The notes under the pieces are model-generated. The model saw only the letters and a program-made list of their open reading frames with translations. It had not been told where the DNA came from and searched no databases. The position numbers and the translations under genes are program-made. From positions 1-18,703 of the forward strand of contig JASBTC010000004.1 in NCBI GenBank assembly GCA_030148625.1: 18,703 bases of DNA, written 5' to 3'. This DNA comes from Sphingobium sp. (GTDB lineage: Bacteria > Pseudomonadota > Alphaproteobacteria > Sphingomonadales > Sphingomonadaceae). This document shows positions 84 to 17,828 of the stretch, in pieces (position 1 is the stretch's first letter; every line of letters starts with the position of its first letter).

Positions 84-1670
84 TTAGCTCAGAAGCTCCT
101 GCTCGATCATGCGTGCCACCTCCTCGATTTGTTCGGGTGGCCATCCGGGGATCTCCATGCCGAGGCGCAGGCCCATGCCGGAGAGGATCTCCTTGATCTC
201 GTTGAGCGACTTGCGGCCGAAATTCGGCGTCCGCAGCATCTCCGCTTCGGTCTTCTGCACGAGATCGCCGATATAGATGATGTTATCGTTCTTGAGGCAG
301 TTGGCCGAACGCACCGACAATTCCAGCTCGTCCACCTTCTTGAGCAGATAGCGGTTGATCCGATCGTTATCCTCTTCCGATGCAGCGGGGAGGGCGGCCG
401 GCATCGACGCCTGCGCCATCCCCTCGTCGAAATGGATGAAGACCTGCAGCTGATCCTGAAGGATACGCGCGGCATAGCCGAGCGCATCCTCGGGATGGAC
501 GGTGCCGTCGGTTTCCACGCTCAGGGTGAGCTTGTCGTAATCCAGTTCCTGGCCGACACGCGTATTCTCGACCCGGTAGGTGACCTGACGCACGGGCGAG
601 TAGAGCGCGTCGATCGGGATCAGCCCGACCGGCGCGTCGACCGGCCGGTTCGCAACCGCGGGCGCATAGCCCTTTCCGGTATCCGCGATGAGTTCCATCG
701 TGAGCGAAGCGCCCTCGTCGAGCGTGCAAATCACAAGCTCGGGGTTCATGATCGTCACGCCATCGGCACCCCCGATCATATTTGCGGTCACCTGCCTTGG
801 CCCCTTTGCCGAAAGCCGGAGCCGCTTGGGGCCGTCGCCATCCATGCGGATCGCGATCTGCTTCACGTTGAGCACGATATCCGTCACGTCCTCGCGCGCA
901 CCGGGGAGGCTCGTGAACTCGTGCAGCACGCCGTCGATGCGAATCGACGTGATCGCGGCGCCCTGGAGCGAGGAGAGCAGCACGCGGCGCAATGCGTTGC
1001 CGAGCGTCAGGCCGAAGCCGCGCTCCAGCGGTTCGGCGATGAAGGTCGCCTTGCGCCGGTCATTGGCCGCGTGCCTTGCCAGTTCGTCCGGTCTTTTGAT
1101 TCCCTGCCAGTTGCGGGCGTTCACACGGCGGGCCAGTCCGCCTGTGCCGGCCGACACGGCGACCGGGACGCGTCGTGAGACCGGTTGCGATTGCTCGGTC
1201 ATGACCTCGACCCGACCGTCCCTGCGCAAGGCGCCCACCGTATCGCGCAGGTGCCGGAAATTATCGGGTGCAGTGCCGGCAAGATAGGTCGTCGCATCGG
1301 TGATCAACTGGTCGAGCTCCGCGCCAATGGCGATGCGTTCCCGTGACGGAAGCGCGAGAATGCGTCCCGCATGACGATCGAGCTCTTCGCCGACACGGTC
1401 GAAGTCGTGCCAGAGCGGCAGGCGCCGCGTCACCGCGCTCACATATGCCTTCGCGACACGGGCGTTGCCCACAGCCTCGACCTGCGCGCCTGCTTCAAAG
1501 GCTTCCGCCCAGCCGAGCGCTTCCTCATCGACCAGGAAATCGCCGAAATCCGAAATCGAGGCGCCGATCAGCGCGCCGAGATCGTGTACATCTCCGTCCG
1601 CCTCGATCCGGGCGATCAAAGCCATGTCGCTCTGCGACAATATGACGGGTCCGGAAGCAATGCTCGCCAT
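84..1670 (-). CDS. rpoA: RNA polymerase alpha-subunit paralogue with about 180-residue N-terminal extension
   Basis: Residues about 183-528 form a full-length alpha subunit. The alpha-NTD has the core block around [14 protein letters not shown] (221-234; R229 matches E. coli R45) and [11 protein letters not shown]. It is followed by a linker (about 418-438) and an alpha-CTD with VRSANCLK (453-460) and TPNFGRKSL (481-489). The UP-element-contacting residues of E. coli (R265, N268, C269, G296, K298, S299) are kept as R454, N457, C458, G485, K487 and S488. The housekeeping protein is about 335-355 residues, so the first ~180 residues are extra. They are acidic, look helical, have normal high-GC codon use and match no domain I recognise. 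The ATG at 1670 has GAGGG seven bases upstream, overlapping the end of the preceding gene, which implies translational coupling. An internal ATG (residue 157, 1200-1202) could give a 372-residue form. The ribosomal-protein neighbours of housekeeping rpoA are absent, so this is probably a second, specialised copy. Confidence 0.93.
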
Positions 1671-1673
1671 TCG

Positions 1674-2561
1674 TCAGCCCTCGTCGATCTCGAAAAATTC
1701 CGGCTGCGCGTTGTTCGACACCCGCCGTGCCTTTTGCCAGTGGATGAAGCGCAGCAGCATGCCTCTCATGCCCGATTTGGCGATGCCCTCGCGGCTGATG
1801 ACCTCCGCCGTCGAAAAGAGCCGGATCTGCCCCTGACGCGCGGCGTCCCACTGGCAGTCCGCGGTGAAGTGCTGCTCGCAGTCGAGCACCGCATCCCGCT
1901 TTTCGAGCTCGCCGGGGCGAATGGTCCAATAGGCGGTGTCGGTCTGCGTCTTCTGGCGGATTTCGGGGGTGTAATCGGTACCCGATATCTTTCGGGCGTC
2001 GGATTTCTTGTTCGAGAATGCGAACTCGCCGACTTCCGCATCGAGGCCGACTTCCTTGAATCCGACCTTGATGCCGATCTTTGGATTGGCCTTGATCGTG
2101 CGCTCGCTGCTGCTTTCGGTGGTGCGTTCGATGTTGATATCCGGCGGGGCCGCCGCGGCCACGGACAGCGTGCCGCCGATCGTCCGGAATTGCAGATTCG
2201 CCTCGCGACACGCGACCTTATAGGGGGAGGGGGTGCCGTTCTGGTCGATGAAGGTGACCGGCGTTATCACCATCTTCAGTCCGACCGAAACGCCGTTTCC
2301 CCGGATTTCCGGGGTCAGGGCGAGCGTGATCGTGGTCTGGAGCCCCTCATTCCGGCTTCGAATGGGAAAATGCAGCGTCTGCCCCAACGCAACTCTGTCC
2401 ACCGCCCACTCCCCGATTTCGCAAGCAAGATTCGGAGACGTAACAAATCCTCTACCGACGGCGAAGCGGGAATCATTCCACTTGCGGGGGCCAGGCGGAC
2501 AGGCGCGATCCGGGGTGAAGCGGCCATCGGCGTTCCGAGACCATGGTTGCGGTAGCGCCAT
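1674..2561 (-). CDS. Hypothetical protein, predicted beta-rich, partner of the alpha-subunit fusion
   Basis: I do not recognise this 295-residue protein. It has no signal peptide or membrane segment. The middle (about residues 55-170) alternates hydrophobic and polar residues (e.g. GLQTTITLALTPEI, VGLKMVITPVTFID), suggesting beta strands. A small alanine/proline run (about 134-140) precedes a Ser/Glu/Arg-rich stretch, and the tail is basic and helical. Six or so cysteines are scattered without a metal-site pattern. The ATG at 2561 is the first in frame; its ribosome binding site is poor, so the start is uncertain. Its TGA (1674-1676) lies 3 bp before the start of the RNA polymerase alpha-like gene, and that gene's ribosome binding site lies inside this gene's last codons. 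The two are therefore almost certainly co-transcribed and probably work together. The role is unknown. Confidence 0.75.
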   Translation of the reverse strand: MALPQPWSRNADGRFTPDRACPPGPRKWNDSRFAVGRGFVTSPNLACEIGEWAVDRVALGQTLHFPIRSRNEGLQTTITLALTPEIRGNGVSVGLKMVITPVTFIDQNGTPSPYKVACREANLQFRTIGGTLSVAAAAPPDINIERTTESSSERTIKANPKIGIKVGFKEVGLDAEVGEFAFSNKKSDARKISGTDYTPEIRQKTQTDTAYWTIRPGELEKRDAVLDCEQHFTADCQWDAARQGQIRLFSTAEVISREGIAKSGMRGMLLRFIHWQKARRVSNNAQPEFFEIDEG

Positions 2562-2714
2562 CCGTCGGCGGAAGTGTTAGGATGGCGAGCCGCGACGAAT
2601 GGCGCATGGGCCGAAATGAGAGATGGCCCGGAGCGGCTCGAACAATCACAATATTCATGTGCGATTGGCAGGCGCGTATCGGCGTGGATATCCAGAGACT
2701 TCATGGAGATCGTG
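2562..2714. promoter_or_regulatory. Divergent intergenic region between the hypothetical/alpha-fusion unit and the CYTH-CHAD gene
   Basis: These 153 bases separate two divergently transcribed units, so both promoters should lie here or just inside the flanking genes. The AT-richest part, AATCACAATATTCATG near 2643-2658, is the likeliest site for a -10 element. I cannot assign a convincing -35/-10 pair for either direction. A plus-strand reading frame continues upstream of 2715 through this region, but it lacks the CYTH fold's beginning and I treat it as non-coding. Confidence 0.4.
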
Positions 2715-4178
2715 ATGGAGGGTTCGCTTGAGGTCGAGCTGAAGCTGGAGCTGGATCCGGTGGCGCTTGGGAAAGTCGATCGGGATGCCTTGTTTGGCGT
2801 GACGCGTGCGTCCGATCGGCTCGAGTCCGTCTATTTCGACACGCCCGGCCTCGATCTGCGCGCTGCAGGTTTCTCGCTACGCGTCCGCAAGAAGGGGCGG
2901 CAGCATATTCAGACGATCAAGGCCGATGCGAAGGCAAAAGCGGGCTTGTTCGTGAGGCCCGAATGGGAACACCCCATCAAGGGAAGCACGCCGATCGTCG
3001 ACGAAACCGCCGGCCCCCTGACTTCGATGGTCGGCTGGAAAGTGCTCGACGCGCTTGTCCGCCTTTTCGCGACCGATGTCAGGCGGACGATCCATCTCCA
3101 TAGCGAGCGGGGTGCGACGATCGAGATTGCGATCGACGAGGGCGACGTTCGGGCGGGCGAACGCTCCGAACCGCTTTGCGAAATCGAACTGGAGCTGAAG
3201 AGCGGGCCGTCCGGTGTCCTGTTCGACATCGCCCGGCGCATGAACGAGGTCCTTCCGGTCCGGCTGGGCGTACGCTCGAAGGCCGAACGGGGCTATGCCC
3301 TGGTCGCGGGCGATGCCGTCACGGCTTTCGGGAACGAGCCCATCATACTCGATCCCGGCGACGATGCGGCGCACGCTTTCGAAACGATCGCGCACGCATG
3401 CCTTCGCCAGTTCCGTTTGAACGAAGCCTTGCTCCTTGCCGGGGGAGGGGCGGAGGCGCTTCACCAGGCGCGGATCGGCCTGCGCCGGCTGCGATCGGCT
3501 TTTACGCTCTACAAGCCTTTGCTGGCCGGTGATGCGAAGGCGCAATTGCTGCGCGGCGAGCTCAAATGGCTGGCGGCGGAATTGGGCGAGGTGCGCAATC
3601 TCGACATAGTGATCGACAGGGTCGAGGCAGGCGAGCGCGAACCGATCATGGATGCACGCGCGCGCATCCATGATGTCGTCCGGGCCGAACTCGAGTCCGC
3701 GCGAACCCGAATCCTCATGATCGATCTCGCCGAATGGCTCGCGCTGGGCGACTGGCGGGTGCGACCGCAGGATCCGGCCGCGCTTCACCAGCCGGTCCGG
3801 CTGCTGGCCGATGGTCTGCTCGAAAAGCATCGCAAGCGGATGAAACGCCGTGGCAGGAATTTCGCCTCGCTGTCGGACCGGGGTCGGCACGAGGTCCGGA
3901 TCGAGGCCAAGGCGCTACGCTATGCCGCCGAATTCTTCGCCGCGCTCTACCGCGACAAAAAGTCCCGCCGACGGCAAAAGGCGTTTCTGAAGGCGCTGGA
4001 GGATCTTCAGGACAGACTGGGCGCCTTGAACGATCTTGTGACGGCCCCCCAAGTGATCGGGAAGCACGGGCTGGACGTCAAACTCCCCAGGATCGGACGT
4101 CGAGAGCGGGAGCGGATGCTGCACCGGGCGGAAGGCGCATTCGAGGCGTTCATGGATATGAAGCGCTATTGGCGTTGA
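2715..4178 (+). CDS. CYTH and CHAD domain protein (triphosphate tunnel metalloenzyme type)
   Basis: This 487-residue protein begins with a CYTH domain (about residues 1-205). Its signature ExExK is at E6, E8 and K10, and the family's YFDTP and basic RVRKKG segments follow. A CHAD domain occupies about 215-485, with the two characteristic His/Arg helices HQARIGLRRLRSAF and HEVRIEAKALRYAAEFF. CYTH enzymes hydrolyse triphosphates using divalent metals, and CHAD domains bind polyphosphate. The combination matches the YgiF-type inorganic triphosphatase layout, so the product is probably a cytosolic tripolyphosphatase or polyphosphate-binding protein. I chose the ATG at 2715 because GGAG (2705-2708) sits six bases upstream and because the CYTH strand starts immediately after it. 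The ATG at 2703 and farther in-frame starts are possible but lack a good site. No functional link to the steroid genes is evident. Confidence 0.9.
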   Translation: MEGSLEVELKLELDPVALGKVDRDALFGVTRASDRLESVYFDTPGLDLRAAGFSLRVRKKGRQHIQTIKADAKAKAGLFVRPEWEHPIKGSTPIVDETAGPLTSMVGWKVLDALVRLFATDVRRTIHLHSERGATIEIAIDEGDVRAGERSEPLCEIELELKSGPSGVLFDIARRMNEVLPVRLGVRSKAERGYALVAGDAVTAFGNEPIILDPGDDAAHAFETIAHACLRQFRLNEALLLAGGGAEALHQARIGLRRLRSAFTLYKPLLAGDAKAQLLRGELKWLAAELGEVRNLDIVIDRVEAGEREPIMDARARIHDVVRAELESARTRILMIDLAEWLALGDWRVRPQDPAALHQPVRLLADGLLEKHRKRMKRRGRNFASLSDRGRHEVRIEAKALRYAAEFFAALYRDKKSRRRQKAFLKALEDLQDRLGALNDLVTAPQVIGKHGLDVKLPRIGRRERERMLHRAEGAFEAFMDMKRYWR

Positions 4179-5148: not shown

Positions 5149-5934
5149 CTAAGCCTCGATGCCCGAAACATGCTCCTCCACCGCGAGCATGATGATCGAG
5201 GCGCGATCGAACAGCTGCGCTTCATCTTCCGTGACGATCGCGTCGACTTTCGGATCGCTGCGATGCACTTGGAAATGCAGAAAGTCCGCCTCGTTCCAGA
5301 ACCAGACTTCGACCATGACATCGAAGAACGGCTCGATCCGCAGTGACGGTATCGCCGGTATCGGGCGCTGCGCATCGGCTTTCGGAAAGCTGCGACGATA
5401 GCCTGCAAAGGCCGGTTTGCCGTCCTTGGTGAGGACACTGAGCGCCAGCGGGCAATGGCCGTCCTCATATCGCCGGATGAACGCATCGCGCGACATCCCC
5501 GCCTTTTTGCGGATCAGGCCGATCAGCTTGATTGCCGGCCGACCGGCATGGCCGGCGGGGCGCGGCTGAAGCATGGCGTCCGGCGTGACGAATTCGTCGC
5601 ACTCGAACATGCCGGCCTGATCGAAGAGCGCCGCCTCGCTGTTCCGTATCGCAGTCGCGATGCCGTCATCCTCGATCGCCGCGGCAAGCGCCGTCAGCTT
5701 GTCGCCATCCTCGTACCAGATCTCGGTGACGACATCGAAATCCGGCTTCGACGCGGCCTGGCGCGAAGGATCCCGCGACAGCATCGCGCCCGGCAGCACA
5801 TAGCTTCGGTGATAGGCGGAGAAATAGGGGAGCAGCGATTGCACCAGCGGCACATGGCCGGTTTCGTACCGATCGATGAAGGTCCGGGTCTCAATCCCGT
5901 CCCGGGCCTTCAGGAACACCAGCTGCTTGATCAT
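5149..5934 (-). CDS. Double EthD-domain protein
   Basis: This 261-residue protein is an internal duplication of an EthD-type ferredoxin-like (dimeric alpha-beta barrel) domain. FIDRYETGHVPL (19-30) repeats as FIRRYEDGHCPL (152-163). DFDVVTEIWYED (65-76) repeats as FFDVMVEVWFWN (203-214), and an ALFDQ-like helix (about 102-106) repeats as QLFDR (about 240-244). EthD proteins accompany oxidative catabolic systems such as ethyl tert-butyl ether degradation, but their biochemical role is poorly defined. The start ATG overlaps the TGA of the upstream KstD-like gene by ATGA (5931-5934), so the two are translationally coupled. It is the last gene of the operon. Conserved Tyr/Glu/His residues in both RYExGH motifs suggest that each half keeps a functional pocket. 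Confidence 0.88.
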   Translation of the reverse strand: MIKQLVFLKARDGIETRTFIDRYETGHVPLVQSLLPYFSAYHRSYVLPGAMLSRDPSRQAASKPDFDVVTEIWYEDGDKLTALAAAIEDDGIATAIRNSEAALFDQAGMFECDEFVTPDAMLQPRPAGHAGRPAIKLIGLIRKKAGMSRDAFIRRYEDGHCPLALSVLTKDGKPAFAGYRRSFPKADAQRPIPAIPSLRIEPFFDVMVEVWFWNEADFLHFQVHRSDPKVDAIVTEDEAQLFDRASIIMLAVEEHVSGIEA

Positions 5935-7634
5935 GCGTCATCCTTCCGCGACCGGGCGGCGATATCGTTCGCCGCGATATAGGCAAAGACCGTTGCCGGC
6001 CCGAGCGTGCCGCCGGCACCGGGATAGCAATTGCCGAAGGGCGATCCGGCGCAGTTTCCGATGGCGTAGAGATTGCCGATCTCCTTACCCTGCTTTGCAA
6101 GGACACGGGCATTGGCGTTGGTCTTGAGGCCGCCCTTGGTCCCAAGATCGCCAAGGTCGATCTGCACCGCATAGAAGGGGCCTTGGTCGATGGGGCCCAT
6201 ACAGGGGTTGGGCGCGACACCCTGCTTGCCGAAGAACAGGTCGAACCGGTTCTGTCCGCGGCCGAATTCCTCATCCCGGCCGGTGGCCGCATATTGGTTC
6301 ATCCTTGCGACGGTTTCGGTCAGCGTGGCGGCATCGACCGCTATCTTTGCTGCCAGTTCCTGAAGGCTGTCGGCCTTGAAGACATAGCTGTCCCACCATT
6401 CGACCGGAATACTGCGATCCGGCATGACGAAACTCGGCAGGATCGCGCCGCAGGGATAGGCTTTCCGGAATTTGGCGTCGAAGACCATCCAGCAGGGCGT
6501 GTTGGCGCCGGTTTTCTGGTGGTCGGCGATCATCGCCTGGCCGAATTCGTCATAGGAACAACTCTCATTGACGAAGCGGCGGCCGAGCCGGTTGACGCAC
6601 AGGCTATAGGGATGCCGGTGATCGAAGAACATCGGCTGTGCGATGTCGAGATTGGGCACCGTGCGCGACGGCAATTGCATGCTCGGCGCCCACCAGTTCG
6701 CGTCCAGCGATTCGGTATCGGCGCCGACCGCCATTCCCGCCGTCAGCCCGTCGCCGACATTCATGCCCCGCGGCGTCAGGCTCCAACTGCTGCTGGTGGG
6801 AACCGGCAGCAATGCGTCGCGCAGCGCCTGGTTCTGTTCGAATCCGCCCGCGGCAAGGATCACCGCATGACGCGCCGTGAAGGTGGTTGTCCTGCCCCTG
6901 GAAAGCGCCTCGACGCCGACCACCTTGCCGCTCTTGGTCACAAGGCCGGTGAGCGCGCAGTTGAGCATGAGCGGAATGTTCCGCTCCAGCATCGCCTTGC
7001 GCAATCCGCCGATCAGCGCGCGGCCCATGGTCAGCCGGCGATCATGCGCGGTCCTTCTGCGCCAGGGCAGGTCCAGCCAATATTTGAGGATCAGCTTCGC
7101 CGCGGTCCATTGCCAGCCGAATTTCCGCGCCGACAAGGCAAAGCTTTGCTGGAGGTTGAGCGCATAGCGATCGAACAGCTTGTAGCCGGATGGCGACTCC
7201 CTGAGATGGAAGAAATCCTCGCCGAGATCGGCGCCGTTCATCTCGACCGGGAACAGCGAGCGCCCGGTCGATGCGCCGGGGGCGCCCGCGATATAGTCCG
7301 GAAATCCGGGGATCGACATCATCTGTACGCCGATGTCGGAAAGGAAACGGATCATGTCGCGGCCATGGTCGACATAAGCGGCCAGCTTGTCGGTGCGGAA
7401 GTCGCCCTTTGACACCGCATCGAGATAGGTCAGCGCCTGTTCGCGGCTGTCCGGCTCGACGCCGATGCCATGATCGGGGATCCAGATCCCGCCGCCCGAT
7501 GTGGCCGATGTGCCGCCATATCGGGATGATTTTTCGACGAGCAGCGGGCGCAGGCCCAGATCGTGCAGGCGGACCGCGGCGAGCATGCCCCCGGCGCCGG
7601 CGCCGCAGATGACGACGTCGAAATCCGTCTCCAT
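5931..7634 (-). CDS. KstD-like FAD-dependent 3-ketosteroid dehydrogenase family protein (first copy)
   Basis: This 567-residue flavoprotein belongs to the fumarate reductase/succinate dehydrogenase/3-ketosteroid 1-dehydrogenase group. The FAD Rossmann motif GAGAGG is at 11-16, with the ribose-binding Glu at E34. GGTSATSGGGIWIP (40-53) and the C-terminal GPFYA (485-489) and GDLGTKGG (495-502) segments match the KstD signature. Y488 corresponds in context to the catalytic Tyr near position 487 of characterised KstD. The length is in the family range. The expected reaction is FAD-dependent desaturation beside a steroid 3-ketone; a different position on a degraded steroid is possible. Its ATG directly abuts the SDR stop codon, and its stop overlaps the EthD start, so it is internal to the operon. 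A paralogue is encoded divergently at 16064. Cytosolic; no signal peptide. Confidence 0.88.
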   Translation of the reverse strand: METDFDVVICGAGAGGMLAAVRLHDLGLRPLLVEKSSRYGGTSATSGGGIWIPDHGIGVEPDSREQALTYLDAVSKGDFRTDKLAAYVDHGRDMIRFLSDIGVQMMSIPGFPDYIAGAPGASTGRSLFPVEMNGADLGEDFFHLRESPSGYKLFDRYALNLQQSFALSARKFGWQWTAAKLILKYWLDLPWRRRTAHDRRLTMGRALIGGLRKAMLERNIPLMLNCALTGLVTKSGKVVGVEALSRGRTTTFTARHAVILAAGGFEQNQALRDALLPVPTSSSWSLTPRGMNVGDGLTAGMAVGADTESLDANWWAPSMQLPSRTVPNLDIAQPMFFDHRHPYSLCVNRLGRRFVNESCSYDEFGQAMIADHQKTGANTPCWMVFDAKFRKAYPCGAILPSFVMPDRSIPVEWWDSYVFKADSLQELAAKIAVDAATLTETVARMNQYAATGRDEEFGRGQNRFDLFFGKQGVAPNPCMGPIDQGPFYAVQIDLGDLGTKGGLKTNANARVLAKQGKEIGNLYAIGNCAGSPFGNCYPGAGGTLGPATVFAYIAANDIAARSRKDDA

Positions 7635-8408
7635 CTAAAGGCTGTAGCCGCCATCGAGCGTCAGCGTCTGTCCCGTGACGAAACGCGCGCGGTGCGATGC
7701 GAAGAACAGCACCGCTTCGGCGACCTCCTCCGCCGTCCCCAGCCGCTTCAGCGCGGAGTTTCGTTTCGCCGCTTCGATATAGGCATCGTCATAGGCGACC
7801 CCGATCATCTTGCGGAACAGGCCCGCGTCGATCAGGCCCAATGCAACGGTGTTCGCGCGAATACCGTTGCGCCCCTCTTCGCGCGCGATGCCGGTCATCA
7901 GCGCGTCGACCGCAGCCTTGGGCACGACCGACAGCGCGTCCTTTGCCGGCCAGCGCAGCAGGCCGGTGGTGCTGATCGTGACGAAGCTTCCACCCCGTTC
8001 GCGCATATGGGGCAGCAGCGCGTGGACGAGGTTGAAGAAGCCGTTGGTGTCGGCATCCATCACCTGTCTGAACTCGTCGGTGCCGATATCGCCGATGAAC
8101 TTCATCGCGATGTGCGAGCCGCTGGCATTGACCAATGAGTGGATGCGGCGATGGTTCGCCACGATCTCCGCGCAGACGGCGGCGACGCTCGCCGCATCCT
8201 CCATCGCGAGCGCATAGGATGCCGCGCTGCGGCCATGTCCGTTGACCGCCGCGATCGCCTGGTCGGCGGCTGCCTTGTTGGTGCGGTATGTCAGCACGAC
8301 ATCGCTGCCCGCCTCGGCGAGCTTCTCGCAGATCGCGCTGCCGATGCCGCCGCTGCCGCCGATGACGAGCGCGACGCCGTCATCGGGGAAATCCGGGGAG
8401 GCGACCAT
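7635..8408 (-). CDS. Short-chain dehydrogenase/reductase with missing catalytic Tyr
   Basis: This 257-residue SDR has the cofactor glycine motif GGSGGIG (17-23) and the NASG structural motif (94-97). The C-terminal TGQTLTLDGGYSL (245-257) is typical of FabG-like enzymes. The usual YxxxK is replaced: the sequence reads ALSVVPKAA, so K164 is present but the Tyr position is Ser160. The catalytic Ser position appears to be Thr147. It may use altered chemistry, be a non-reducing SDR-fold enzyme, or be catalytically weak. I chose the ATG at 8408 because it lies 2 bp after the acyl-CoA dehydrogenase stop. The frame is open farther upstream to 8825, but that part overlaps the acyl-CoA dehydrogenase gene and has no SDR character. 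In the operon it would be expected to act on a hydroxyacyl-CoA or ring hydroxyl of a steroid intermediate. Confidence 0.88.
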   Translation of the reverse strand: MVASPDFPDDGVALVIGGSGGIGSAICEKLAEAGSDVVLTYRTNKAAADQAIAAVNGHGRSAASYALAMEDAASVAAVCAEIVANHRRIHSLVNASGSHIAMKFIGDIGTDEFRQVMDADTNGFFNLVHALLPHMRERGGSFVTISTTGLLRWPAKDALSVVPKAAVDALMTGIAREEGRNGIRANTVALGLIDAGLFRKMIGVAYDDAYIEAAKRNSALKRLGTAEEVAEAVLFFASHRARFVTGQTLTLDGGYSL

Positions 8409-8410
8409 GA

Positions 8411-9568
8411 TCAAAAACTCCTCGAGATGATTTCTTTCATGATCTCGTTCGTGCCGCCGTAGATCATCTGCGCGCGCGCATCGGTCCATGCCCGCGCGAC
8501 CGGATATTCGAGCATATAGCCATAGCCGCCATGGAGCTGGACGCACTCGTCGAGCACGCGGTTCTGCAGCTCGGTGCACCACCATTTGGCCATGGCCGAC
8601 GCTTCGGCGCTCAGCGTTCCGGCGCAGGCCAGCTCGATGCACCGGTCGATATAGACCCGTGCGATCTGCGTCTTGGTCTTGCACTCCGCCAGCTTGAACT
8701 TGGTGTTCTGGAAATCGATCAGCTTCTTGCCGAACGCCTCGCGCGATTTGGTGTAATCGATGGTCGATTCCAGCGCGACCTCGCAGCCGGCGATGGCGCG
8801 GATCGCGATCATCAGCCGCTCCCACGCCAGTTCCTGAATCAGGTAGCGCAGACCCTCGCTCTGGCGGCCCAGCAGATTGCCCCGGGGGATCCGGACATCG
8901 TCGAAGAACAGTTCGGCGGCGTCCTGTGCCTTTTGCCCGACCTTGTCGAGCGGCAGGCTCTTGCTGACGCCGTCACGGTCCGCCTCGACCAGGAACAGCG
9001 ACAGGTTGCTGCCGCCATCCTCCTGCTCGGTCTTGGCGGCGACGATGATCAGGTCGGTGATATAGCCGTTGGTGATGAAGGTCTTGGTGCCGTTGAGGAT
9101 GTAATCGTCGCCGATCGCGACGGCGCGGGTGGAGATCGCGCGCAGATCGGACCCGCCGCGCGGTTCGGTCATGGCGAGCGAGCCGATGACTTCGCCGCGG
9201 GCGAGCCTTGGCAGCCACGTCTCCTTCTGCGCCTCGTCACCGAAGCGTTCGATATAACCGGCGACGATCTCGGAATGCATGACGAAACCGGGGCCGGCTG
9301 CATTGGCCCTTTGCTGTTCCTCGATCATCACCGCGCTGTATTTCCGGTCGGCGCCGGCGCCGCCATATTTTTCGGGTGTCGTCAGGCAGAGGAAGCCATG
9401 CTTGCCCGCCTCCAGCCAGACCTCGCGGTCGGTGTGGCACTGCTTGTTCCACTTATCGAGATTCGGGATGACCGAATCCTGCATGAAGCGCCGGACGTTC
9501 GTCCGAAACAGCTCATGCTCGTCCGTGAATATCGTTCTCTCTATCGGCAGGAAATGCGCACCGCTCAC
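8411..9568 (-). CDS. Acyl-CoA dehydrogenase, long-chain (LCAD) type
   Basis: This 385-residue protein has the family length and blocks: MTEPRGGSDL (133-142), NGTKTFITNG (159-168), LHGGYGYM (345-352) and IYGGTNEIMKEII (369-381). The MCAD-type catalytic Glu position is Gly (IYGGT). A Glu at E250 in LAWERLMIA matches the alternative base of LCAD and isovaleryl-CoA dehydrogenase, so it should be active. It catalyses FAD-dependent alpha,beta-desaturation of an acyl-CoA, here probably a steroid-derived side chain or ring fragment. The start is GTG at 9568, supported by AGGGGA (9577-9582) eight bases upstream; no better ATG exists. The SDR follows after 2 bp. It is a single-gene ACAD, unlike the alpha2beta2 heterotetramers encoded by gene pairs in actinobacterial cholesterol side-chain degradation. 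Confidence 0.93.
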   Translation of the reverse strand: MSGAHFLPIERTIFTDEHELFRTNVRRFMQDSVIPNLDKWNKQCHTDREVWLEAGKHGFLCLTTPEKYGGAGADRKYSAVMIEEQQRANAAGPGFVMHSEIVAGYIERFGDEAQKETWLPRLARGEVIGSLAMTEPRGGSDLRAISTRAVAIGDDYILNGTKTFITNGYITDLIIVAAKTEQEDGGSNLSLFLVEADRDGVSKSLPLDKVGQKAQDAAELFFDDVRIPRGNLLGRQSEGLRYLIQELAWERLMIAIRAIAGCEVALESTIDYTKSREAFGKKLIDFQNTKFKLAECKTKTQIARVYIDRCIELACAGTLSAEASAMAKWWCTELQNRVLDECVQLHGGYGYMLEYPVARAWTDARAQMIYGGTNEIMKEIISRSF

Positions 9569-9670
9569 TTGTTGTTTCCCCTGAATTCCATTGGCCGCTT
9601 TGCTTGTTTCAACGGAAATCGGAGTGACGACCGCACATTGAACAGGCGAAATCCTACGTCCCGATCGGGC
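9569..9670 (-). other. 102-bp gap inside the catabolic operon
   Basis: This is the longest gap within the otherwise tightly packed operon. Just after the thiolase-like stop it contains the perfect 10-bp palindrome CCCGATCGGG (9660-9669). At its other end lies the AGGGGA ribosome binding site of the acyl-CoA dehydrogenase. On the minus strand TTGAAA near 9615-9620 resembles a -35 box but has no good -10 partner, so an internal promoter is only a possibility. Confidence 0.35.
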
Positions 9671-10828
9671 TCATTTTGAACTCGTATTCCGCAGGATGAG
9701 CGCGCCATTGGGCGTTGTGTCGCAGGATGTGACGAGGCAGGTCTGCGCACCCGCGATCTGGGTGCAGGCATCGCCGCGAAGCTGCTTCACCGCTTCGGTC
9801 ATCAGGTTCATGCCGTGAAGATAGACTTCGGCCAGGCTGCCGCCCGATGTGTTGACGGGCAGCCTGCCGTCCGCACGGGTGTCGCCGCGCGCGACGAAGT
9901 CGCCGGCCTCGCCGCGATCACAGAAGCCATAGGCTTCCAGGCTGAACAGGACCAGAGGCGAGAAGGCGTCGTAAAACTGCGCGACATCCACGTCGGCAGC
10001 CTTGATGTCCGACTGTCTCCACAGGTTGGCCGCGCAACTCCATGACGAACTGCGCAGCGGATCGGCGCTGTGATAATCGGTCATCAACTGGTGCTGCGGC
10101 TTCATGCCTTGCGAGAAGGCATGGATATGGACCGGCGGTCTCGGGCAATCGGCGGCGCGGTCGCTGCGGACAAGCACAAGCGCGATCGCACCGTCGCTCT
10201 CCAGGCAATTGTCATACAGGCACAGTGGGTCGGAGATCATCCGCGCGCCCATATAATCCTCGATCGACAGCGCGCGCGATCCCATCAGCGCCTTAGGATT
10301 GTTGCGGGCATAGCTGCGCATCGACAGTGCCACTTCGGCGAGCTGTTCGCGCGTCAGGCCATATTCGTGCATATAGCGCTTGGTCAGCACCGCGACCTCG
10401 TCGACGGGGCGCAGCAGCCCCTGCGGCCTCGACCATTTCCAGTGATCCTCGACGACGCTCTGGACCCCGGCCCAGAGCCGTTTCGATGGTGCGCCGCGTT
10501 TGCGCGATCGCCAGACGACGCCGACATTGGCGACGCCCGCGGCGATAGCCAGCGCCAGATGCCCGACCGCGCCGCAACCCGCGCCGCCGCCATGCGGCGA
10601 TTGCGACAGATAATGGACGTCGCCCATGCCGACGCTGCGCGCAATCTCGAACTCGGGCGTCTGTTCATAGGTGTAGCAGGACAGCGCATCGACTTCGGAC
10701 GGGTGGATGCCGGCATCGTCGAGCGCAGCCTTGATCGCCCGGCACGCCAGCTGGAATTCGGATTCCTCCAGGTTTTTCGAAAAGGGCGTTTCGCCGATCC
10801 CGACGATCGCGGTCTTGTCTTTCAGCAT
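9671..10828 (-). CDS. Thiolase-fold lipid-transfer-like protein, possible Ltp2-type retro-aldolase
   Basis: This 385-residue protein belongs to the SCP-x/lipid-transfer thiolase group. The usual nucleophilic Cys site (NNNCxTG in SCP-x) reads GGAGCGAVG (81-89), placing Gly86 at the nucleophile with a Cys one residue earlier. A normal thiolase mechanism is therefore doubtful. In Ltp2, the steroid side-chain aldolase, two Tyr (294 and 344 in the form I recall) replace thiolase chemistry. Here Y286 in FYDAFSPL and Y336 in SLAEVYLHG have exactly the same 50-residue spacing. Such proteins need a DUF35 partner, and one is encoded two genes upstream (14428-14889). It could release propionyl- or acetyl-CoA from a hydroxyacyl-CoA by retro-aldol cleavage, or be a thiolase of unusual type. 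The ATG at 10828 has a weak ribosome binding site, 28 bp after the oxidoreductase gene. Confidence 0.87.
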   Translation of the reverse strand: MLKDKTAIVGIGETPFSKNLEESEFQLACRAIKAALDDAGIHPSEVDALSCYTYEQTPEFEIARSVGMGDVHYLSQSPHGGGAGCGAVGHLALAIAAGVANVGVVWRSRKRGAPSKRLWAGVQSVVEDHWKWSRPQGLLRPVDEVAVLTKRYMHEYGLTREQLAEVALSMRSYARNNPKALMGSRALSIEDYMGARMISDPLCLYDNCLESDGAIALVLVRSDRAADCPRPPVHIHAFSQGMKPQHQLMTDYHSADPLRSSSWSCAANLWRQSDIKAADVDVAQFYDAFSPLVLFSLEAYGFCDRGEAGDFVARGDTRADGRLPVNTSGGSLAEVYLHGMNLMTEAVKQLRGDACTQIAGAQTCLVTSCDTTPNGALILRNTSSK

Positions 10829-10856
10829 GATCGTAATGCCCGCTTTTCTGTCTGTT

Positions 10857-13800
10857 CTATTCGGCGGCCACCAGCGTCATCGGCTGCGGCGACGGGTGAA
10901 AGAAGCGCTCGAGCAGTTCGGCAAGCCGGGCCTGCGCCTTTTCGAGATGCTCGTCCTTGACCGTGTCGTAGCCGCGGATCAGCTCCGGATAGGATGCGAT
11001 CTCGACCGCGAGGCCGTAATTGCCGGCGTCGAGCGCCGCGAGAATGTCGCCGATCATCGTCTCGTAACTGGCGATCAGCTCGCGCTCGATCCGGCGGTGT
11101 CCGCTATAGCCGAAGATGTCGAAAGGCGTGCCGCGCAGGACTTTGAGCTTCGCCAATATGGCATAGAGGCGCATCGTGCCGCGGCCGAATGTCCGCTTTG
11201 GGTATCGCCCGGTTTTCGGATCGCGCTTTTGCAACAGCGGCGGCGCCATGTGGAATTCGAGGCGCAGATCGCCTTCGAACTCCTGGCTGAGCGCCTGCAT
11301 GAAGCCGGCATCGCTATAGAGCCGGGCGACCTCATATTCGTCCTTGAAGGCCATCAATTTGTAGAAATAGCGCGCGACCGCCCTGGTCAGCGCCTGATCG
11401 TCGCCGAACCCGGCATCGACCACGCGCACCCGCTCGATCAGCACCCGATATCGATCCGCATAGGATCGGTTCTGATAGCCGACCAATTCGTCCGCAAAAC
11501 GATCGACGAGCGATGCGACCGTCTTGTCCTTTTCAACGGGGGCCTGTTCGGATCCCCCGAACGCAATGGCTTCGACCGCAGGCAGATTGGTGGCGGCGAT
11601 CCGGCCCCAGGTCAGCGCGGCCTTGTTCATCTCGACGCTGACGCCGTTCAGCTCGACGGCCTTCAGCAGCGCGTTCAGGCCGATCGGCATCCATCCCTTC
11701 TGGAAGGCATAGCCGACCAGGAACAGATTGGCTGCCACCTCGTTGCCCATCAACGCATAGGCCAGCTTTCCGGCATCGACGAAAGCGCTGCGGGCGTCGC
11801 CCAATATGCCGAGGATCGATCCGACCATCCGGTCCGCGGTCAGGTTGAGATCGGGATTGCTCGCAAAGGCCGATGTCGGGGCGACGCGGGTATTGACGAC
11901 CGCGCGGCTCCTGTCCGGCGCCATTTTCGAGACGACCTCCTGACCGGTGGTCACGACGATGTCGCATCCCAGGATCAGGTCCGCGACGACGATGCGGGTG
12001 GCGTGCAGTTCCTCCGGTCGCGCGGCGATCCGCACATGGCTGGTCACCGGCCCGTTGCGCTGGGCAAGGCCGGCGACGTCGAGCACCGAACATCCCTTGC
12101 CCTCCAGATGCGCGGCCATGCCGAGCAGCGCGCCGATCGTCACGACGCCGGCGCCGCCGATGCCGGTGATCAGCAGGCTGAACGGTGCGTCGAGCGGTGC
12201 GACATTCGGTTCGGCCAATTGCGCGGCGAGCATCGCGGCTTCGGGGGGCAGGGCCGATCCATGACTGACACTGCGCTTGCGCGGCGTGCCGCCATGCACC
12301 GTCACGAAGCTGGGGCAATAGCCCTTGGTGCAGGAGAAATCCTTGTTGCAGGCGGATTGGTTGATCCGTCGCTTGCGGCCGAATGCGGTTTCGACCGGCT
12401 CGATCGCGATGCAATTGGATTGCACGCCGCAATCGCCGCAGCCCTCGCACACGCGCGGGTTGATGAAGATGCGCCGGTCGGGCTCCTCTGCGGTGCCGCG
12501 CTTGCGGCGGCGGCGCAATTCGGTCGCGCAATATTGTTCGTAGACGATGATCGAGACGCCCTCGACCTCGCGCAGTTCGGTCTGCACCGCGTCGAGCGTG
12601 TCGCGGTGGTGGATCGTCACGCCCGGCGCGAAATCGTACCGGCCGTCATATTTTCCGATATCGTCGCTGACGACCGCGATCCGCCGGATGCCTTCGGCAT
12701 GGACCTGCCGGGTCAGTTCGTCGACGCGGACCTTGCCTTCGATGCTTTGCCCGCCGGTCATCGCGATCGCGTCGTTGACCAGGATCTTGTAGGTGATGTT
12801 AACCCCGGCGGCGACGGCCGCGCGGATCGCGAGCAGGCCCGAATGATAATAGGTGCCGTCGCCCAGATTCTGGAAGATGTGCGTCTTGTGGGTGAAGGGG
12901 GAGAGGCCGATCCATGGCGCGCCTTCGCCGCCCATCTGGAACAGCGTCGGCGTATTCCGTTCCGGCAGGAACGTCGCCATGCCATGGCATCCGATGCCGC
13001 CAAAGGCGACGCTGCCCTTGGGCACCTTGGTTGACGTGTTATGCGGGCATCCCGCGCAGAAGCTCGGCAATCTGACGAGATTGCCGCCCTGTCCGACGGG
13101 CGCGGCAGCGGATCTGGGCTGCCATCCGGTCGCCGCGAGCGCCGCTTCGCCGCCCAGCCGCGCCAGCAGCGCGCCGATCACCTCAGCCAGGTTCGGCGCG
13201 TTCAATTCGCCTTCCGACGAGATCAGGGGCAGGCCGTTTTCGTCGAGCTTGCCCAGCAGCAGCGGCGCGACCTTGTCGTTGACGAACAGGCTGGCCAGTT
13301 GCGGCTCGATGATCGGCCTTTTTTCCTCGACCACCAGGACGTATCGATAGGACCGGGCAAAGTCGGAAATCAGCTCGGGCTCCAGCGGCCAGGGCATGGC
13401 CACCTTGAAGACGCCGATGCCATGGTCGCGGCATTGGTCGTGATCGAGGCCGAGTTCCTCGATCGCCTGCATCAGATCGGGATGCGCCTTGCCGGTGGTG
13501 ACGATGCCGAGCAGGCCGGTCTTGCCGTGGATGATCGGACGGTTGAGCCGGTTCGCCTTCACGAACGCCTTCACCGCGGGAATGCGCTTCTGATATTGGC
13601 GCTGTTCGACCATGACGGGATGGATGCCCCAGCCCGCGTTCAGCGCGCCCGGCTGATGCTCGTCCTCGTCGGGCAGGGAAATCGAGACCCGATCGTCCGA
13701 CACATTGACCGATGCCGAGCTTTCGACGGTGTCGGTCACGCATTTCATGCCGATCCAGCAGCCTGAAAAACGCGACAGCGCGATGCCGTAAAGGCCGAAA

Positions 13801-14369
13801 TCCAGATAGTCCTGCACCGACGACGGATTGAAATAGGGCATGCCGTAATGGACGAAGGCATGATCGCTCTGATGCGCGACCGTCGACGATTTTGCGCCAT
13901 GGTCGTCGCCGGCGAGGACAAGCACGCCGCCATGTTTCGACGACCCGGCATAGCTGCCATGCTTCAGCGCGTCGCCGGCCCGGTCCAGCCCGGGGCCCTT
14001 GCCGTACCAGAGCGCGAACACGCCGTCATAACGCGCCTCGCCGAACAGATCGGTCTGTTGCGATCCCCAGACCGCTGTCGCGCCGAGTTCCTCGTTGATG
14101 CCCGGCTGGAAGACGATGTGATGCGCGTCGAGGTCCCGCCGGGCGCCCTTCAGCGCGGTGTCGTAGCCGCCGAGCGGCGAGCCCGTATAGCCGGAGATGA
14201 ACCCCGCCGTGTTCAGTCCGGCGGCAAGATCGCGGTCGCGCTGCATCATCGGCAGCCGCACCAGCGCCTGCGACCCGGACAGATAGACGCGCCCGGCGGT
14301 TTTCCGATAGCGATCCTCGAGAGCATAGTCCTGCAGGCCTTGCCCGGACGCGGTTGCAGGCTCGGTCAC
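10857..14369 (-). CDS. Fused indolepyruvate-type 2-oxoacid:ferredoxin oxidoreductase
   Basis: This 1170-residue single chain joins the alpha and gamma parts of a TPP-dependent 2-oxoacid oxidoreductase. An N-terminal pyrimidine-binding domain (about 25-240) is followed by the TPP/pyrophosphate domain with CAGCPHNT (438-445), GIGCHGM (458-464) and GDG (503-505). An Fe-S cysteine cluster comes next (C641, C644, C647, C653, C674, C680, C685). Then comes the gamma Rossmann-like domain starting ITGIGGAGVVTIG (734-746) and a C-terminal domain typical of the alphaproteobacterial fusion. It oxidatively decarboxylates a 2-oxo acid to an acyl-CoA while reducing ferredoxin. The GTG at 14369 is chosen because GGAG lies eight bases upstream (14378-14381); the longer open frame overlaps the DUF35 gene and is implausible. 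Such an enzyme (edcC) is implicated in estrogen degradation in Novosphingobium tardaugens. Here the substrate is inferred to be a steroid-derived 2-oxo acid rather than indolepyruvate, because of its neighbours. Confidence 0.92.
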   Translation of the reverse strand: MTEPATASGQGLQDYALEDRYRKTAGRVYLSGSQALVRLPMMQRDRDLAAGLNTAGFISGYTGSPLGGYDTALKGARRDLDAHHIVFQPGINEELGATAVWGSQQTDLFGEARYDGVFALWYGKGPGLDRAGDALKHGSYAGSSKHGGVLVLAGDDHGAKSSTVAHQSDHAFVHYGMPYFNPSSVQDYLDFGLYGIALSRFSGCWIGMKCVTDTVESSASVNVSDDRVSISLPDEDEHQPGALNAGWGIHPVMVEQRQYQKRIPAVKAFVKANRLNRPIIHGKTGLLGIVTTGKAHPDLMQAIEELGLDHDQCRDHGIGVFKVAMPWPLEPELISDFARSYRYVLVVEEKRPIIEPQLASLFVNDKVAPLLLGKLDENGLPLISSEGELNAPNLAEVIGALLARLGGEAALAATGWQPRSAAAPVGQGGNLVRLPSFCAGCPHNTSTKVPKGSVAFGGIGCHGMATFLPERNTPTLFQMGGEGAPWIGLSPFTHKTHIFQNLGDGTYYHSGLLAIRAAVAAGVNITYKILVNDAIAMTGGQSIEGKVRVDELTRQVHAEGIRRIAVVSDDIGKYDGRYDFAPGVTIHHRDTLDAVQTELREVEGVSIIVYEQYCATELRRRRKRGTAEEPDRRIFINPRVCEGCGDCGVQSNCIAIEPVETAFGRKRRINQSACNKDFSCTKGYCPSFVTVHGGTPRKRSVSHGSALPPEAAMLAAQLAEPNVAPLDAPFSLLITGIGGAGVVTIGALLGMAAHLEGKGCSVLDVAGLAQRNGPVTSHVRIAARPEELHATRIVVADLILGCDIVVTTGQEVVSKMAPDRSRAVVNTRVAPTSAFASNPDLNLTADRMVGSILGILGDARSAFVDAGKLAYALMGNEVAANLFLVGYAFQKGWMPIGLNALLKAVELNGVSVEMNKAALTWGRIAATNLPAVEAIAFGGSEQAPVEKDKTVASLVDRFADELVGYQNRSYADRYRVLIERVRVVDAGFGDDQALTRAVARYFYKLMAFKDEYEVARLYSDAGFMQALSQEFEGDLRLEFHMAPPLLQKRDPKTGRYPKRTFGRGTMRLYAILAKLKVLRGTPFDIFGYSGHRRIERELIASYETMIGDILAALDAGNYGLAVEIASYPELIRGYDTVKDEHLEKAQARLAELLERFFHPSPQPMTLVAAE

Positions 14370-14427
14370 CGTGAAATCTCCATAATGCCGTCGGCAGTGC
14401 CGAAGTGCCGCATTGGGCACGCGATGA

Positions 14428-14889
14428 TCAGGACCATGGCGACGGCGTCCGTGTACCGAGGCGCCAGAAGGGCAGGGTGCAGTCTTCGGACACCTGGCGG
14501 AACTGGATGTGGATGGGCTGGCCAATCGTCACATCGTCCGCGGTCACGCCCGTCACCTCGCCGTGCTCGTCCCGGACGGCCATGCCGGCCATCCTGATCT
14601 GCGGATTCTCCTTCAGCGCGCCGATGATCGTGACATAGGGGGCCAGTGCCTCGAATGCGGGCAGCAGCGGCGTGCGCGGGCTGGCAAAGGACCAGACGAT
14701 ACCCTCGCCCGAAACCTGTTCCCAGACCACGTCTTCCGACTGGCAATGCGGGCACATCGGGCGCGGCGGAAAGCGCATGTCGCCGCATGACGCGCAGGCC
14801 TGAACGACCAGCCGATGCTGCCATGCATTCTCCCAGAACACGCGGTCGAGTGGATCGTCGGTCGAGGGCAGGGGGATATCGTCGATCAT
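14428..14889 (-). CDS. DUF35 Zn-ribbon/OB-fold protein
   Basis: This 153-residue protein has an N-terminal helix, then a rubredoxin-like zinc ribbon with C32, C35, C46 and C49 (CASC...CPHC). A C-terminal OB-fold carries the family's GxGxVWSF-type strand (about 61-68). DUF35 proteins bind acyl-CoA and serve as obligate partners of thiolase-fold enzymes, as ChsH2 does for Ltp2. Its expected partner is the thiolase-like protein at 9671-10828, although the large oxidoreductase gene lies between them. Its ATG overlaps the crotonase stop codon by ATGA (14886-14889), indicating translational coupling. A 58-bp gap separates it from the oxidoreductase start. Its C-terminus (RLGTRTPSPWS) is short and unremarkable. 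Confidence 0.92.
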   Translation of the reverse strand: MIDDIPLPSTDDPLDRVFWENAWQHRLVVQACASCGDMRFPPRPMCPHCQSEDVVWEQVSGEGIVWSFASPRTPLLPAFEALAPYVTIIGALKENPQIRMAGMAVRDEHGEVTGVTADDVTIGQPIHIQFRQVSEDCTLPFWRLGTRTPSPWS

Positions 14890-15707
14890 GTGCCGTCCTG
14901 CCCGGAATAGGGCGCCCAGCGCGGTGTTCGCTTCTCCGAAAACGCGCGGATCCCTTCGGCGAAATCATGCGACTGATTGTGCGCGACGATCGCATTCCAT
15001 CCGTTGCACGACGCGTCGTGCAGGCCCGCTTCCTTCGCGCCCCAGATCGCGCGTTTGGTGTGCGCCATGGCGCCCGGCGAGTTGCGTGCGATGCGTGCCG
15101 CCAGCGTGCGGGCGCGATCGAGCAGGTCGCCGGCGGCGTGGATCTCGTTGACCATGCCCAGCCTGAAAGCGTCCTGCGCGGTGATTGTCTCGCCCCGACC
15201 GCCCAGCGCCATCTGGAGCACCGCGCCCATCGGCATGCGCCGGGCGAGCGCGATCGTCTCCAGCGCGGAGACCAGGCCGACGCTGACATGACTGTCGGAA
15301 AATTCGGCATGGTCGCAGCTGAGCACGATGTCGCACTCGGCGACGAAATGCAGGCCGCCGCCGATCACCGCGCCGTTGATCGCGCAGATGACGGGTTTCC
15401 AGACATGGTTCTGGAGTGGGGTCCATCGGATCGATGCGATGTCGGGCACGCCGTTCCCGTCGACGATCATGGCGGGCAGGTCGGCCAGGTCCGCGCCGGT
15501 GCAGAACGCCTTGTCGCCGGCGCCCGTGACGATCGCGACGATCGCCGAAGGATCGGCATCGAACAGTCGCCATGCCTCGGGCAATTCCCGGCTCATCACA
15601 CTGTTGACGGCATTCAGCCGCTGCGGCCGATCGAGCGTGATCAGCGCAACGCCATCGCTGACGTCATAGGTGAGAGTTTCGAACCGAATTTTCCGATCCC
15701 CTTCCAT
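14886..15707 (-). CDS. Crotonase-superfamily (enoyl-CoA hydratase/isomerase-like) protein with atypical active site
   Basis: This 273-residue protein has the crotonase fold: ITLDRPQRLNAV (23-34), the oxyanion-hole segments AFCTGADL (67-74) and NGAVIGGGLH (111-120), and a helical C-terminus. The two Glu residues of true hydratases (E144 and E164 in rat) correspond by exact 20-residue spacing to His120 (GGGLH) and His140 (SDSH). Simple hydration is therefore unlikely. The superfamily also contains hydrolases, isomerases and C-C bond cleaving enzymes, for example the ring-opening EchA20 of steroid catabolism. The ATG at 15707 is chosen because the crotonase strand begins right after it, with AAGGA about 12 bases upstream, a long spacing. 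The frame continues to 15827 without family character. It is the first gene of the operon, facing the divergent KstD gene. Confidence 0.9.
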   Translation of the reverse strand: MEGDRKIRFETLTYDVSDGVALITLDRPQRLNAVNSVMSRELPEAWRLFDADPSAIVAIVTGAGDKAFCTGADLADLPAMIVDGNGVPDIASIRWTPLQNHVWKPVICAINGAVIGGGLHFVAECDIVLSCDHAEFSDSHVSVGLVSALETIALARRMPMGAVLQMALGGRGETITAQDAFRLGMVNEIHAAGDLLDRARTLAARIARNSPGAMAHTKRAIWGAKEAGLHDASCNGWNAIVAHNQSHDFAEGIRAFSEKRTPRWAPYSGQDGT

Positions 15708-16063
15708 AAATCGCTGTTTTCCTTGATGTTCGCGTGACGGGTCCGCGGCCATGCCACGGAGAACGCACCCGGCGACGGATGCGCGAAGGCGCTGCATTCG
15801 ATTGGGATCGCGTCCGTGGATGGCCACTCCGGACTGCGGTCTTCCGTCAATTTATGTTATGGATAGCGTTCAGGATAAACTCGCATTGGCGGACTTTGGG
15901 CATCGCCGGCTTTAGTGAGTTAAAGCGAGTTTCAGTTGAGTGTCCTTCGAGGTCTTCTCTAGTCAGTCATGATCGGGCGAGGATATATGCGATTGGCACC
16001 AGCGGACTGGAATCCGGCGGCACAGCCCAGCGGGTTCACGCACCGGCGCGACAGGCGCGCGAC
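15708..16063. promoter_or_regulatory. Divergent promoter region between the catabolic operon and the second KstD-Rieske unit
   Basis: About 356 bases lie between the crotonase start (minus strand) and the KstD start (plus strand). The core at about 15840-15965 is visibly more AT-rich than the genes and is the likely site of both promoters. A possible minus-strand promoter pairs TTTATC with CATAAA at 17-bp spacing within 15854-15882, but both boxes are weak matches. The plus frame is open across the region, but the protein it would encode is Arg/Ser-rich and unrelated to the KstD family, so I treat it as non-coding. The repeats inside it are listed separately. Confidence 0.55.
15877..15942. 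promoter_or_regulatory. Inverted AAACTCGC/GCGAGTTT pair and helically phased GAGTT half-sites
   Basis: AAACTCGC (15877-15884) is the exact inverse complement of GCGAGTTT (15925-15932). GAGTT also occurs at 15917-15921 and 15927-15931, and GAGTG at 15938-15942, so half-sites fall 10 and 11 bp apart on one face of the helix. This looks like an operator array for a regulator controlling both divergent units, possibly the TetR protein at 4480. No factor can be assigned from sequence. Confidence 0.4.
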
Positions 16064-17782: not shown

Positions 17783-17787
17783 GCACC

Positions 17788-17810
17788 CGGCCGGATGCGG
17801 CCGCATTTTT
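17788..17810 (+). terminator. Candidate intrinsic terminator or attenuator between KstD and Rieske genes
   Basis: CGGCCG (17788-17793), loop GATG, CGGCCG (17798-17803) form a 6-bp GC stem followed by CATTTTT (17804-17810). It begins 6 bases after the KstD stop. The stem is short, so it may be a partial terminator that lowers Rieske expression relative to KstD rather than a full stop. The remaining 18 bases to the Rieske ATG leave little room for a separate promoter unless one lies across the hairpin. Confidence 0.4.
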
Positions 17811-17828
17811 CGTACACATCAAGACAAT

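Follow-up and report, generated by a model that had tools for sequence, protein, structure and literature searches.

The locus described here raises the question whether an RNA polymerase alpha subunit can be kept as an accessory protein with a domain of its own, or whether the gene is the ordinary rpoA of its host in an unusual form. The window, that is the whole stretch of DNA analysed, is a contig of 18,703 bases, and the gene lies near one end of it. In the initial annotation it had been placed at 84..1670 without an internal stop, which was right on both counts: from the ATG at base 1670 the frame stayed open for 528 codons on the minus strand. Pfam detected the dimerisation, insert and C-terminal domains of the alpha subunit (PF01193, PF01000 and PF03118) within residues 213-497, all above cut-off, and the NCBIfam rpoA model TIGR02027 scored 365.7 bits on the fusion against a cut-off of 227.8. 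The alpha part began in the alignment at V183-N184, with V183 encoded by GTG, at the place where M-x-V-N stands in the housekeeping sphingomonad alphas shown. The about 345 residues of intact alpha that had been claimed were confirmed by Pfam and TIGR02027, residues 183-528 being a complete subunit. Judged from its sequence, the protein can firmly be assigned to the RpoA family, at full length and with all three domains. The features of the locus are collected in Table 1.

Table 1. Features at the alpha locus, with position in the window, strand and the basis of each assignment.
Feature	Position	Strand	Basis
Fusion ORF, 528 aa: orphan N-terminal region and complete RNA polymerase alpha subunit	84..1670	(-)	ORF list, Pfam, NCBIfam
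Residues 1-156: N-terminal region, orphan and acidic, perhaps helical	1203..1670	(-)	Searches, low-confidence model, composition, codon score
Residues 157-182: probable linker, first codon ATG followed by A	1125..1202	(-)	Codon score, low-confidence model, sequence
Residues 183-528 and stop: complete alpha subunit, from GTG V183	84..1124	(-)	Alignments, GTG codon, assembly and CTD residues
Orphan ORF, 295 aa, ends 3 bases before the ATG of the fusion	1674..2561	(-)	ORF list
CYTH-CHAD gene, divergent from the orphan ORF and the fusion	2703-4178		Pfam PF01928, PF05235

The residues on which the function of an alpha subunit depends were compared by alignment. Residues 454, 457, 458, 485, 487 and 488, pointed out in the initial annotation as UP-element residues, correspond to and are identical with R265, N268, C269, G296, K298 and S299 of E. 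coli, which we take to be the UP-element contact residues of the alpha C-terminal domain (CTD); K271 was identical as well. According to PMC3294249, dimer formation of the E. coli alpha subunit needs F35, T38 and I46, the interaction with beta R45 and L48, and that with beta-prime K86, V173, V180 and K200. The window alpha was identical at F35, T38, R45, L48, K86, V180 and K200 (E. coli numbering). I46 was replaced by V, a conservative change common to most of the relatives compared, and V173 by I, also conservative and found likewise in a plasmid-borne Yoonia alpha and in P0013. The window alpha should, by inference from the sequence, be able to dimerise and to nucleate polymerase assembly. 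It differed at positions where E. coli, Azospirillum, Yoonia and the compared sphingomonads agree, e.g. at E. coli positions 7, 10, 69, 74, 153, 168 and 306. Two of the 27 changes described below, S69T and V74A, speak against such an assembly: they fall within segment 65-75, which is listed among those most strongly protected by beta (PMC3294249).

The part in front of the alpha subunit could not be connected to any known protein in the searches performed. The protein search with the whole fusion scored 8,000 candidates, and the best 120 listed consisted of the window's own protein and 119 sphingomonad-type alphas. The latter were 351-397 residues long and 73-77% identical, covered 65% of the query (69% in one), and none of the 119 among these listed matches extended over the N-terminal region. 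The longer rpoA entries among the top matches (up to 397 aa) appeared by eye to be ordinary sphingomonad alphas with mis-set starts. With residues 1-156 as query, 245 candidates yielded none with E <= 0.001 in a search reaching proteins of about 86-273 residues, and Pfam, PHROG and PADLOC gave no match. The best NCBIfam hit was sub-threshold (E 0.0069, 15.6 bits against a cut-off of 355), and comparison with solved structures gave chance-level matches only (best E 0.19). Scans of genome_contigs with the fusion, and of viral_contigs with the fusion, the alpha alignment and the N-terminal region, found no relatives; they were seeded by a few short peptide patterns and hence not exhaustive. At least 80% of the fusion was covered by none of the 87 plasmid records and none of the 23 phage records that had a match. 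The term novel, under which this domain had been introduced, is therefore apt in the sense that it had no detectable relatives among the 245 candidates or in Pfam, PHROG and PADLOC. Its description as acidic also held, with 26 D/E against 15 K/R in residues 1-156. It had further been called probably helical and proposed for structure prediction: a single-sequence model placed helices in residues 13-150 and no structure from residue 151 on, and at a mean pLDDT of 41 this is a hint only.

The normal coding character that had been ascribed to the N-terminal part was not borne out by codon usage. Residues 1-156 scored 0.287 in the fusion frame, which has no stops and was the best of the six frames, and the mirrored antisense scored 0.204 with one stop. 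For forty-six equal pieces of the contig's other genes the score ranged from 0.296 to 0.774 in sense and from -0.269 to 0.292 in mirrored antisense, under a codon model that was trained on the same pieces and so slightly favours them. The N-terminal value thus falls below the lowest sense piece and just inside the antisense range, i.e. between the classes. For residues 79-156 sense (0.220) and antisense (0.217) came close to a tie, and residues 157-182 scored -0.012. In this scoring the IOR reading was started upstream of its likely start. In a scan by codon position the second position of the fusion frame was lowest in G+C in 25 of 25 windows, which together with the open frame favours the sense frame; the first position exceeded the third in three windows inside the N-terminal part, and no switch of the lowest position was seen. 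As the frame is open through to the alpha subunit and the second position is lowest in G+C, we concluded that residues 1-156 are probably coding, while codon usage alone gives no proof of this. Residues 157-182 are a probable linker.

The reading that we favour, at a probability of roughly 0.47, is that the fusion is an accessory alpha paralogue of a sphingomonad-like bacterium, which would assemble into RNA polymerase together with a tethered regulatory domain and would be the putative second rpoA of its host. The fused alpha would pair with itself or with the housekeeping alpha and would nucleate alpha2-beta-beta' assembly. Reconstituted E. coli polymerase tolerates tags at the N-terminus of alpha. 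The resulting enzyme would have the extra domain attached through a flexible linker some 30 residues long, and the domain could serve as a regulator built into the enzyme, or as a docking site to which the protein of the orphan ORF upstream might bind. The promoters at which it acts would be those selected through the usual contacts of sigma and of the alpha-CTD. Against this reading count that the fusion is known from one contig, that the N-terminal model is of low confidence, and that the codon signal is weak in residues 1-156 and about zero in residues 157-182.

In favour of this reading, alphas outside a ribosomal operon were also met among plasmids. The window alpha matched 87 of 72,556 plasmid records, and the gene surroundings were read in 15 of these plasmid records; the PLSDB gene tables are incomplete. 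Several of the other 72 matching records listed appear to be of chromosome size. A ribosomal context was present in five of the 15 (Sphingomonas, Azospirillum, Tsukamurella, Comamonas and Pseudoalteromonas), while for four (Methylobacterium, Sinorhizobium, Shinella and E. coli) the stretch was unannotated and the record provided sequence only. All four Streptomyces plasmids read, out of 21 Streptomyces records with a match, had no annotated ribosomal gene within 4-5 kb on either side of rpoA (NZ_CP108493.1, NZ_CP108499.1, NZ_CP108986.1 and NZ_CP109461.1); these rpoA genes have a CDS of 1,008-1,026 bp and are about 44-47% identical to the window alpha. NZ_CP108499.1 and NZ_CP108986.1 had a gene order in common, consisting of a MerR regulator, an HTH protein, a single-stranded DNA-binding protein, a small ORF and rpoA. 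On the 898-kb plasmid NZ_CP062975.1 of Pontibacillus sp. ALD_SL1 (L019:1-3867), rpoC was immediately followed by a divergent rpoA with 31% identity to the window alpha, and the two are perhaps part of an extra polymerase.

A close parallel came from the 16,564-bp plasmid pBS5-3-2 of Yoonia sp. BS5-3 (NZ_CP150953.1). It carries a complete alpha with no ribosomal genes beside it. An orphan ORF of 193 aa lies immediately upstream, and the two are coupled by an ATGA overlap; alpha and partner span positions 14681-16425 of the record (L003:5414-7161), and the alpha has a C-terminal tail of about 50 residues. As in the window, as far as that reaches, a complete alphaproteobacterial alpha without ribosomal neighbours has an orphan ORF directly upstream. 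In contrast to the window, alpha and partner are two separate ORFs, the partner cannot be aligned to the N-terminal region, and the alpha has its tail. A relationship between this partner and the N-terminal region was rejected accordingly, no alignment being obtained. The partner had looked by eye like an ECF sigma factor, which was also rejected: PF04542 had no match on the plasmid, PF08281 matched only elsewhere and below cut-off, and the protein itself was without a Pfam match. No relatives of the partner were found in viral_contigs by a scan seeded with a few short peptide patterns. The plasmid has annotated relaxase and MobC genes and is typed by MOB-suite as non-mobilizable; its alpha is missing from the PLSDB gene table.

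The Yoonia arrangement bears on the first alternative, which we consider rather unlikely: that the window holds two translationally coupled genes, one for an orphan small protein and one for an accessory alpha starting at ATG157 or GTG183, which an indel of one base in the contig makes look fused or a recent indel has really fused. After both ATG157 and GTG183 the next base is A, so that a TGA of the +1 frame overlaps each of the two codons. A start codon overlapping a TGA of the +1 frame is a common layout of translationally coupled genes, and the Yoonia alpha is joined to its partner by such an overlap. A 1-base indel near the junction would convert a coupled pair into the present fusion, and the codon signal is about zero between the two codons, in residues 157-182. 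Against this reading stands the unbroken run of windows in which the second position of the fusion frame is lowest in G+C, and the +1 frame just 5' of both ATG157 and GTG183 has a non-coding look by eye. The indel is moreover hypothetical, the contig being the sole sequence. Shine-Dalgarno pairing did not choose a start, because the values of ATG1 (-6.4), ATG157 (-7.2) and GTG183 (-5.8) are similar and 6 of the 31 in-frame ATG or GTG codons examined within the ORF have stronger pairing than ATG157.

Another alternative, which we regard as unlikely, is that the gene serves as housekeeping rpoA in a sphingomonad-like lineage that is unsampled and evolves fast, with the ribosomal operon broken upstream and rplQ just off the contig. 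Housekeeping rpoA sits between rpsK upstream and rplQ downstream. In the window rpsM and rpsK were absent 5' of the alpha gene and the orphan ORF stood in their place, followed by the divergent CYTH-CHAD gene, which argues against the housekeeping reading; a normal ribosomal operon upstream of the window alpha is ruled out. Pfam found no ribosomal gene among the 14 window ORFs scanned, and the 18,703-base contig had no tRNA or Rfam matches at gathering scores. On the downstream side the window ends 83 bases after the alpha gene, and in two relatives among the Alphaproteobacteria rplQ lay 260 and 241 bases away, which speaks for this alternative. The location away from the ribosomal operon that had been claimed for the gene stood for the upstream side; for the downstream side, where the 83 bases fall short of both gaps, it is putative.

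The orphan ORF upstream is represented in the database by a protein form of 242 aa, which by its length implies a start at GTG54 (base 2402), and Shine-Dalgarno pairing was -9.3 at this codon and -1.5 at ATG1. Among 1,148 candidates the sole match was the contig's own protein, and no match was found in plasmids, PADLOC or PHROG, nor in genome_contigs and viral_contigs by scans seeded with a few short peptide patterns. Its structure model was beta-rich with a pLDDT of 36. A resemblance between the N-terminal region and this ORF was considered and rejected, as no alignment was obtained.

The sequence of the window alpha itself was compared with the same 119 alphas. Of the 244 columns that at least 95% of them conserve, it departed from 27 and kept 217, and a leave-one-out count of such departures within the 119 gave a median of 0 and a maximum of 7. 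The 119 are top search matches, which do not sample the order in a balanced way, and the window alpha lies outside their clade, so part of the excess is expected of any outside lineage. The departures were spread over the insert (residues 243-358, 11/69), the C-terminal tail (6/19), the N-terminal edge (3/13) and the inter-domain linker (2/4), with 3/73 in residues 208-242 and 359-414 together and 2/66 in the CTD. A maximum-likelihood tree was built from 49 rows, of which 40 came from the 119 and nine were others, and the tool warned of long rows. In it the window alpha clustered with the sphingomonads at a support of 100/99. Its end branch measured 0.6, where the median was 0.056; its position as first branch within them had weak support (86/52). 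Identity to each of six outgroups was lower for the window alpha than for every one of the 119.

In relative-rate tests with Azospirillum as outgroup, the median number of unique changes was 29 for the window alpha against 14 for the alpha compared, with p<0.01 in 27 of the 119 comparisons. With Sinorhizobium it was 29 against 15, and p<0.01 was reached in only two of the 119. The alpha of S. parapaucimobilis, used as a control, gave 14 against 12 and p<0.01 in none of the 119. Between the window alpha and S. parapaucimobilis rpoA, dN was 0.20 and dS 0.88 (NG86 only). These values show that the window alpha is under amino-acid constraint and suggest that it probably evolves faster, about twofold by counts, with patchy significance. 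A faster rate is expected of a paralogue and possible also for a fast unsampled lineage, and the tests do not separate the two. The twofold acceleration of patchy significance and the kept assembly residues speak for a housekeeping gene, against which stand the changes at sites common to E. coli, Azospirillum, Yoonia and the sphingomonads compared. What had been put forward as a dedicated paralogue accordingly agrees with a complete, constrained alpha, faster by counts and without rpsK and rpsM upstream, and its rate would also fit a fast lineage. The underlying observation of an alpha fused to a further region largely held overall.

It had also been suggested that the protein poisons polymerase as part of a conflict system. 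That a mobile element uses the fused alpha to poison, mark or redirect the host polymerase seems very improbable to us. Orphan partners are typical of fast-evolving accessory loci and are present here, and plasmids do carry alphas without ribosomal neighbours. On the other hand, no mobile-element, phage or defence family was found among the 14 window ORFs scanned with Pfam, and neither PADLOC (at E <= 1, for known anti-phage defence) nor PHROG matched the fusion, its N-terminal region or the ORF upstream. The functional residues are kept and not broken, and the neighbours look catabolic, so that the suggestion received no specific support. Beyond the CYTH-CHAD gene a TetR regulator is followed by a catabolic cluster that extends as far as a gene for a KshA-type Rieske oxygenase, where the contig ends. 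This cluster (5149-18701) comprises an EthD protein, two FAD-binding proteins, an SDR, an acyl-CoA dehydrogenase, a thiolase-like protein, an oxidoreductase with POR and DUF6537 domains, a ChsH2-like OB protein, an enoyl-CoA hydratase and the Rieske oxygenase; judged from the family names it presumably serves steroid or lipid breakdown. A chimeric assembly or a decaying copy without function is equally far-fetched: the fusion comes from a single contig, the searches found no relatives of the N-terminal region and the upstream ORF, and the N-terminal codon signal is weak, but around the junction the 1-kb blocks have G+C values (0.608, 0.646 and 0.609) inside the contig range of 0.556-0.671, dN is well below dS and most conserved columns are kept.

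If the fusion is an accessory paralogue as we favour, it has precedents in part. Second rpoA genes are described for Francisella, Chloroflexus species and Streptomyces avermitilis, and identical recent copies for two other genomes, in the covered portion of PMC3294249. The Francisella RpoA1 and RpoA2 are two non-identical alpha subunits that heterodimerise (PMC3294249, same portion). Like the window, which departs from the usual ribosomal-operon place on its upstream side, Francisella has a divergent alpha outside that place. For Francisella an acceleration of evolution after the duplication is reported. The Francisella alphas, however, changed residues for homodimerisation and beta contact, whereas the window alpha keeps or conservatively changes them; the second rpoA is established in Francisella and putative for the host of the window, and that portion of PMC3294249 mentions no fused extra domain. 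The second alpha of Chloroflexus has no drastic substitutions in the assembly regions, as in the window (PMC3294249). For Chloroflexus, Streptomyces avermitilis and the identical-copy duplications the same portion of the paper mentions no fused N-terminal region, unlike the window. The gene called rpoA2 in P. aeruginosa seems, from the covered part of PMC13170360, to be a laboratory duplication. The Streptomyces plasmid alphas resemble the window alpha, as far as the window reaches, in having no annotated ribosomal neighbour and differ from it in their length, given above, which leaves no long extension. Among the open-licence PMC matches listed, no title or beginning of an abstract described rpoA in fusion with a further domain, or an alpha on a plasmid that lacks ribosomal neighbours. 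Second rpoA genes are already known; what is new is the orphan region fused to alpha.

Bacterial RNA polymerase is usually regulated through the exchange of sigma factors on an invariant core. The window and the Yoonia plasmid together suggest a wider reading, which is doubtful at present: bacteria and plasmids may carry spare alphas joined to private partners, by fusion in the one case and by translational coupling in the other, and may in this way install the partner permanently on a fraction of the polymerase. If true, the core enzyme would be specialised by a swap of alpha rather than of a sigma factor, and an accessory alpha with a domain of its own would mean that the core itself exists in versions. 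It would also be a natural case of a protein tethered to the N-terminus of alpha. The plasmid-borne alphas of Yoonia and Streptomyces, being present in named strains, would make this wider question testable.

A phage sequence was also seen in the comparisons. In Ruegeria phage vB_RpoS-V16 (NC_052969.1, positions 10387-10593) a match to the C-terminal domain of alpha only was found, with 34.8% identity over 69 residues and an E of 4e-4.
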